This document shows, piece after piece, positions 172 to 39,365 of a stretch of 39,365 nucleotides of DNA. The DNA lies in contig CALUXE010000010.1 in assembly GCA_944324675.1 (NCBI GenBank), forward strand, positions 1-39,365, in the 5' to 3' direction. The DNA is from an uncultured Elusimicrobiales bacterium. Its GTDB lineage: Bacteria; Elusimicrobiota; Elusimicrobia; Elusimicrobiales; Elusimicrobiaceae. The number at the start of each line of letters is the position of its first letter. The first letter of the stretch is position 1. The notes under the pieces are model-generated. The model had not been told where the DNA came from. It saw nothing but the letters and a program-made list of their open reading frames with translations, and made no database searches. The translations under genes and the position numbers were made by a program.

Positions 172-199
172 TTGACTTGTTTTTTTTTTTTGATAAATT
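172..199 (+). promoter_or_regulatory. promoter with a 12-T tract as spacer
   Basis: TTGACT at 172-177 matches five of six bases of the -35 consensus. It is followed by TG, twelve Ts (180-191), GA and a -10-like TAAATT at 194-199, a 16-bp spacer. The predicted start lies near 206, about 90 nt ahead of the secreted-protein gene at 295. Because the tract lies between the two boxes, gain or loss of Ts would change the spacing, the arrangement used by known phase-variable promoters. Boxes and tract are seen directly; promoter activity and variability are inferred. Confidence 0.5.
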
Positions 200-294
200 A
201 GCTTCATAAAATCAGCCCGCTGGCAAGAGAGCTCTTTGTTTTTCGTCCAGGTTAGTTTAAGCGGGTTGTTTAAAGTTAAAAACAGGAGAAAAGT

Positions 295-1104
295 ATGGCG
301 AATAATAAAATAGCCGTGAAGGTTTTTTTGGGCTGTTTGTGTTGTTTTGTCCTTATTATGGGATTGAACGCCGCGGATGGGACTTCCGGGAGCGGGAGTA
401 CGGGGAGTTCGGGTACGGCAAATTGCACCACCGTTGGGGAAACGCAGGAGAAATATACGGCTGATAGCAATTGCGGATATAGTACGCAGACAAGGACATG
501 CTGTTCAAATAAGTATTGGAGCGGTTGGGACGAGCCTTGCCCCGGCGCAGTCCAATTGGTAGCCGAGCGTAGTACGGAAAGTCTAACGCTTACTTGCAGC
601 GGTTATTCTGGTGCGAAAGGAAATGTAGAGTGCTGGAATACGATTCCGGCTAGGATATCAGTTCCCTATCCGAAGTGTCCGGAAACTAATATTTGTGACG
701 GCAAGTCTGTCGGTTATAAGTGTTATGAGAGCTATTCTCCCACGGCAGAAGAATTGCTCGGATGGAATTATGCGGGCCCCATAGGTTCATACATTCAATG
801 TCCATACGGCGCTAACGATGGTCGGGGATGCTGTATAGAAACAAAAGATTTGCCTGATACGTCAGTATCCATAGCCAATGCCGTTTGTGAATCCACTGCT
901 GGTGGCGGCACCGGGGGCGGGAGCAGTCAAGGAGGCACTGCCCCAAAAGTACATAACCATCCCCAAGTATACATATGGAGAACCAACACCGAGCCCTTGG
1001 CCGCAGGTAGCTTTACCGTAAATGTCGTTACTTGCAAGCAGGGCACGAGCGGCGGCGGAACGGGTGGTAGCGGCGGTACGAGCGGAGGCGGGACCCAAAT
1101 ATAA
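295..1104 (+). CDS. secreted cysteine-rich protein with Gly/Ser/Thr linkers, unknown family
   Basis: I do not recognise the family. The 269-residue product starts with a signal peptide (positive N-terminus, hydrophobic residues about 9-25, small residues near 26-27) and is expected to be exported. About fifteen cysteines follow, including two CC pairs. Low-complexity Gly/Ser/Thr stretches occur right after the signal peptide, at about 200-211, and at the extreme C-terminus, dividing a large cysteine-rich module (about 43-197) from a smaller one (about 214-248). A short CCSNKYWSGWDEPC segment resembles W-x-x-W/cysteine repeats of adhesive domains, but this is weak. AGGAG lies 7 nt before the ATG. 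The gene stands alone between a T-tract promoter and a strong terminator. A surface or adhesion role is a guess from composition. Confidence 0.75.
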   Translation: MANNKIAVKVFLGCLCCFVLIMGLNAADGTSGSGSTGSSGTANCTTVGETQEKYTADSNCGYSTQTRTCCSNKYWSGWDEPCPGAVQLVAERSTESLTLTCSGYSGAKGNVECWNTIPARISVPYPKCPETNICDGKSVGYKCYESYSPTAEELLGWNYAGPIGSYIQCPYGANDGRGCCIETKDLPDTSVSIANAVCESTAGGGTGGGSSQGGTAPKVHNHPQVYIWRTNTEPLAAGSFTVNVVTCKQGTSGGGTGGSGGTSGGGTQI

Positions 1105-1219
1105 TAAAGCCTGGCAGCTTTGAGGTAAATTATAAGGAGCGATAATTATTTGAGAAGGAAGTTGATTTAAGAAGTTTTCTCTGAGGCGCTGACACAAACG
1201 CCGCCTCTTAAACTAACCG

Positions 1220-1247
1220 CCCCGCCGCCTAAACGGCGGGGTTTTTT
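1220..1247 (+). terminator. rho-independent terminator
   Basis: Perfect 8-bp GC stem, CCCCGCCG (1220-1227) with CGGCGGGG (1234-1241), six-base loop, then six Ts. It lies 115 nt after the cysteine-rich gene and is its natural terminator. Confidence 0.85.
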
Positions 1248-39286: not shown

Positions 39287-39327
39287 TTGACTTGTTTTTT
39301 TTTTTTTTTTTTTTTCTCCAGTATGGC
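39287..39327 (+). promoter_or_regulatory. second TTGACTTG box followed by 21 Ts
   Basis: TTGACTTG at 39287-39294 is identical to 172-179 and is likewise followed by a T tract, here 21 Ts (39295-39315). A possible -10, TATGGC (39322-39327), lies 29 bp from TTGACT, too far for activity; losing about 12 Ts would restore a 17-bp spacer. No gene follows within the window. Between the stop at 39233 and this box lies an imperfect GGGC/GCCC hairpin (39258-39281) that may terminate the upstream gene. Confidence 0.4.
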
Positions 39328-39365
39328 TTCTTGGAAAAGGGGTTTCTTTTTTGTCCAAAACGCAA

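Follow-up and report, generated by a model that had tools for sequence, protein, structure and literature searches.

Does the run of thymines near the start of contig C10, from an uncultured Elusimicrobiales bacterium, switch the gene behind it on and off, and is that gene the only one so equipped? The stretch analysed, hereafter the window, is this entire contig (39,365 bp; the genome comprises 1.40 Mb in 17 contigs). The element in question, at positions 172-199, reads TTGACT-TG-T12-GA-TAAATT and ends 95 bp 5′ of a gene for a putatively secreted cysteine-rich (Cys-rich) protein. The preliminary description placed the two boxes 16 bp apart around a T12 tract, and the sequence confirms it: the spacer (178-193) contains 13 Ts, 12 of them contiguous, in the consensus of one assembly and 172 bp from the contig end. 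It had also proposed that slippage in this tract switches a surface protein. The element is probably a member of a family of contingency promoters specific to this lineage, through which slipped-strand mispairing would phase-vary a repertoire of pilins and surface proteins. The proposed switch gains from the recurrence of the element, the length differences among paralogues, a poly-G relative and non-repetitive versions. Its clientele has to be redrawn, as it is not one Cys-rich gene but the clients of a promoter family, in this genome mainly type IV pilins.

Recurrence of the element in the genome and the family

Taken alone, the window's boxes match the consensus at 5 of 6 (−35) and 4 of 6 (−10) positions. 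The hexamers are unremarkable, since a scanner found 17 promoter-like sites in 3 kb and 9.4 ± 3.1 in shuffled sequences. Such near-background boxes are what would be expected if a chance T-run lay beside chance hexamers. This explanation, to which we give practically no credence, is already refuted by recurrence: TTGACTTGT10 occurs in 24 exact copies in the genome, and the reversed pattern in none.

With the variants TTGACCTG, TTGAATTG and TTGACTTGG included, the copies amount to about 30. The genes behind them are 22 readable type IV pilins of the N_methyl type and two Cys-rich genes, while six copies lie at contig ends. All of these readable products, the Cys-rich ones by their N-terminal hydrophobic segment, are predicted to be exported or surface-located. 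The long T-runs of this genome are nearly confined to the element (28 of the 29 runs of at least 11 Ts), the remaining one being in a garbled contig end. Among the 26 copies with clean boxes, tracts of T10 (2), T11 (2), T12 (16) and T13 (6) are found, and the distance between −35 and −10 ranges from 14 to 18 bp with a mode of 16.

Each client gene has a promoter tract of its own, although not all N_methyl genes are served. A minor-pilin cluster (C1:120-123 kb) lacks the element. In addition, the same boxes occur with wholly or mostly non-repetitive spacers of 17-18 bp, before a Cys-rich paralogue (C4:122731) and two pilins (C1:117341 and C1:171944), indicating that a plausible promoter can do without a pure T-tract.

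A search of relatives for the box followed by a T-run, which the preliminary description had suggested, shows the motif to be widespread in the family. Of 90 genomes from the same family, 65 carry TTGACN1-6T12 by a manual count, against 3 among 60 relatives outside it, and the reversed pattern has almost no matches. The form typical of the main sister genus is TTGACTTG-T12-GATAAATTTTGCGTATG, which lies 5′ of pilins. In three congeners (G001, G008 and G017), the genes behind it mostly encode Cys-rich secreted proteins of one large family. In 378 kb of another congener, G014, 20 long homopolymers were counted; 17 of these, mostly T15, stand no more than 250 bp 5′ of a pilin gene on the same strand.

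At the same position, the congener G010 carries poly-G of 9-16 bases. Its sites fall into two promoter classes; 13 precede pilins and a 14th is at a contig end. With TAAAAT/TAAACT as the −10, the spacing in this genome is 18-25 bp. Were TATTAT the −10 instead, tracts of G15/G16 in one class would yield a 17-bp spacing, which leaves the on state uncertain. A viral link was also considered and rejected, as the sole match in IMG/VR was a chance one without a fitting downstream gene.

In several loci of the sister genus (L039, L043, L044, L054, L056 and L063-L066), the −10 hexamer is followed after about 6-7 nt by the ATG of the pilin gene, and the mRNAs of these loci may be leaderless.

Turnover of tract length

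Near-identical copies of the element differ in tract length. When promoters of one genome are compared two by two over 65 flanking bases, the tracts are unequal in 6 of 9 pairs with 0-3 substitutions and in 29 of 38 with 4-8; the proportion is much the same for pairs further apart. Since close pairs differ as often as distant ones, the tract evolves faster in length than its flanks do in sequence. In G001, three pilin promoters carry T10, T12 and T14 with near-identical flanks (their 80-bp 3′ flanks match).

A control came from a sister family, in which poly-G promoters (L190-L206) were examined as further pilin promoters and rejected. They stand 5′ of a gene that we take, from recognition of its protein sequence, to be mraZ. 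Their spacer run is G8 or G9, and all 10 have a spacing of exactly 17 bp. These runs are shorter than those of the pilin promoters, and the case is a reminder that a homopolymer in the spacer is not in itself proof of switching.

Homopolymers in promoters of surface-protein genes are known from other bacteria. In porA of Neisseria meningitidis, a poly-G between −35 and −10 sets the spacing by its length, with 17 bp as the optimum (PMC3899988; PMC7864442). The present element shares with porA a pure homopolymer between the boxes, here assigned by consensus, and length differences between near-identical copies, in this case paralogues rather than strains. It differs in that porA is a single gene, while here dozens of pilin or Cys-rich genes per genome are concerned, the tract is poly-T (poly-G in one relative) and switching is proposed.

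The vlp genes of Mycoplasma hyorhinis form a multigene family of surface proteins that switch on and off (PMC10502178). As in the present system, each gene carries a promoter homopolymer of its own, there poly-A. There the products are lipoproteins of a wall-less bacterium; here they are type IV pilins and unnamed Cys-rich proteins of Elusimicrobiales, dispersed round the genome. In Treponema pallidum, the poly-G of tp0126 lies between −35 and −10 and works best at 17 bp (PMC7864442). The tpr/tp0126 promoters are similar in carrying poly-G on paralogous outer-membrane genes, but the tprL run overlaps the −10, the genes are few, and length variation was measured in vivo, whereas here it is deduced from paralogues.

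In sabA of Helicobacter pylori, the length of a poly-T tunes transcription of an adhesin (PMC4081817). That tract lies outside the −35/−10 spacer, alters the alignment of core promoter and UP element and does not set the spacing, unlike the present one, which is inside the spacer. The opc gene, which had been cited as a further spacer example, does not serve as one, for its poly-C overlaps the −35 region (PMC7864442).

Switching or a structural tract

The proposed mechanism is as follows. The element consists of a −35 TTGAC(T/A) and an extended −10 GATAAA/T, and the spacer between them is made up almost entirely of a single homopolymer. During replication, slipped-strand mispairing would add or remove bases of the run and shift the spacing; an RNA polymerase of the sigma-70 type would work efficiently on the promoter at about 16-17 bp and poorly at other spacings. 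With its own copy, each pilin or Cys-rich gene could switch independently, giving varied pilus and surface repertoires across the population. Three parts of this are inferred: changes of tract length inside a clone, control of transcription by the spacing, and surface diversity as the purpose. The chances are about even for the wider proposal of a family-wide combinatorial switch of the surface coat in Elusimicrobiota. In such a system, tens of pilins and fast-diverging Cys-rich proteins would be turned on and off independently, and T could be replaced by G as only slipperiness and total spacing would matter.

The main rival is a promoter of a pilin and surface regulon that does not switch, where the T-tract is kept for DNA shape or a binding protein, its length is selected near 12 (or 15) and the differences among paralogues are tolerated noise. 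We consider it unlikely, though it deserves weight. Its best argument is the sharp modal length within each species, and it agrees with the conservation of tract purity and of the TTGACTTG and GATAAA boxes across genera; T-tracts can indeed work via DNA structure, as in sabA (PMC4081817). It fits poorly with poly-G in the same role in G010, with promoters of this very genome that keep the boxes around non-repetitive spacers, and with the different spacings of near-identical copies, unlike those of mraZ. Phase variation is favoured because of these three observations together with the recurrence of the element and the length differences among paralogues. The wider spread in G010 (9-16, as against 10-13 for T) also agrees with poly-G being less stable than poly-T, as is known (PMC3899988).

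Very improbable, in our judgement, is the view that one promoter copy was spread by recent duplication and gene conversion, with length differences as assembly or sequencing errors at repeats. The contigs of this genome do mostly break at these promoter and pilin repeats, most of them ending at the genes concerned. A few end sequences are garbled, visibly so for two copies near contig ends (C1:216 and window 39287-39365). Against this stand the 65 genomes with the architecture, many of them independent assemblies, and the size of the differences, up to 7 bases in G010 and 10/12/14 in G001, which is large for such errors. The mraZ runs, from the same kind of assemblies, keep a constant spacing.

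Several points weigh against slippage switching. The sharp modal length (T12 both here and in the main sister genus, T15 in G014) looks like constraint, and many G014 spacers are 19-21 bp, beyond the usual working range. Tract lengths were read from assemblies, several of them near contig ends, and that of G001 is possibly a long-read assembly, prone to homopolymer errors. MutS, which lowers slippage, is present in all 18 congeners (MutL was not searched), and loss of mismatch repair was accordingly rejected as a cause of the length changes.

A literature search for phase variation in Elusimicrobiota found none described, the four papers that contain both words having neither in title or abstract; this agrees with the preliminary description, which knew of no such system in the group. 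The mechanism is of a known kind. Novel, as far as was found, are its lineage, its scale and the pilins as clients. If the switching interpretation is true, a phylum with few cultured members would possess, for its type IV pilins, a promoter-switched gene family that ranks among the larger ones known. The change from poly-T to poly-G and the locked natural variants would then allow a clean comparison of which features of a contingency locus are maintained by selection. The interpretation is directly testable on existing metagenome reads.

The Cys-rich gene and other promoters

The window gene belongs to a multigene family with a common promoter (table 1). Its product carries the module C..VG..Q.KYTA..C.Y.T.TR.CCSN..WS.WD..C, and across the family (the window gene, L024 and L231-L259) the first module is conserved and the remainder highly divergent. 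Homologues at E ≤ 1e-5 were found in 4 of 100 genomes, all within its own genus. No match to Pfam, NCBIfam or PDB sequences was obtained, and the AlphaFold2 (AF2) model is poor (mean predicted local distance difference test, pLDDT, 49; predicted template modelling score, pTM, 0.31). The earlier characterisation of an exported, Cys-rich product of no known family is borne out in its 18 cysteines and in the lack of a family match; export is suggested by the hydrophobic N-terminus.

The hairpin behind the gene is consistent with a single-gene transcript from the window promoter. Among 39 leaders of Cys-rich genes, alifold gave no consensus RNA structure, and Rfam had no match in the seven loci searched for a structured RNA leader.

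Table 1. Features of the window around the promoter element and at its far end
Feature	Position	Strand	Remarks
−35 box TTGACT	172-177	+	From sequence; TTGAC invariant in most copies of the genome and in relatives
TG	178-179	+	From sequence
T12 homopolymer in promoter spacer	180-191	+	From sequence; T10-13 in clean-box copies of the genome
GA	192-193	+	From sequence
Extended −10 TGA-TAAATT	191-199 (hexamer 194-199)	+	GATAAA conserved in copies
Predicted 5′ leader	200-294	+	Putative transcription start about 206; AGGAG at 284-288
Open reading frame of Cys-rich protein, putatively secreted	295-1104	+	269 aa, 18 Cys; N-terminal hydrophobic segment
Terminator-like hairpin	1219-1242	+	From sequence
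Second element copy, TTGACTTG-T21	39287-39315	+	Cut by contig end; downstream sequence looks garbled

The N_methyl (pilin-type) matches number 112 in G009 and 108 in G014, an extreme expansion for genomes of 1.4-1.5 Mb. Many pilin genes without a homopolymer promoter have a conserved leader, in which a hairpin is followed by ACGGCTGTTAT..TGGGTTA....GGCTCAAATATAACAGCCGTTTTT. Its terminator-like stem lies just 5′ of the ribosome-binding site and is possibly an unnamed attenuator; it had no Rfam match. This leader was seen at L111, L121, L125, L129, L130 and L141 (in G014, G009, G012, G006 and G015) and at L156 (C6 of the present genome, about 19.0 kb).

Another candidate switch, of a non-pilin gene, is located in G009 (L226, G009:C103, about position 1670, minus strand), where TTGACAC-G10-TATTATATAAT stands 5′ of a putative secreted protein that by its look resembles an outer-membrane barrel.
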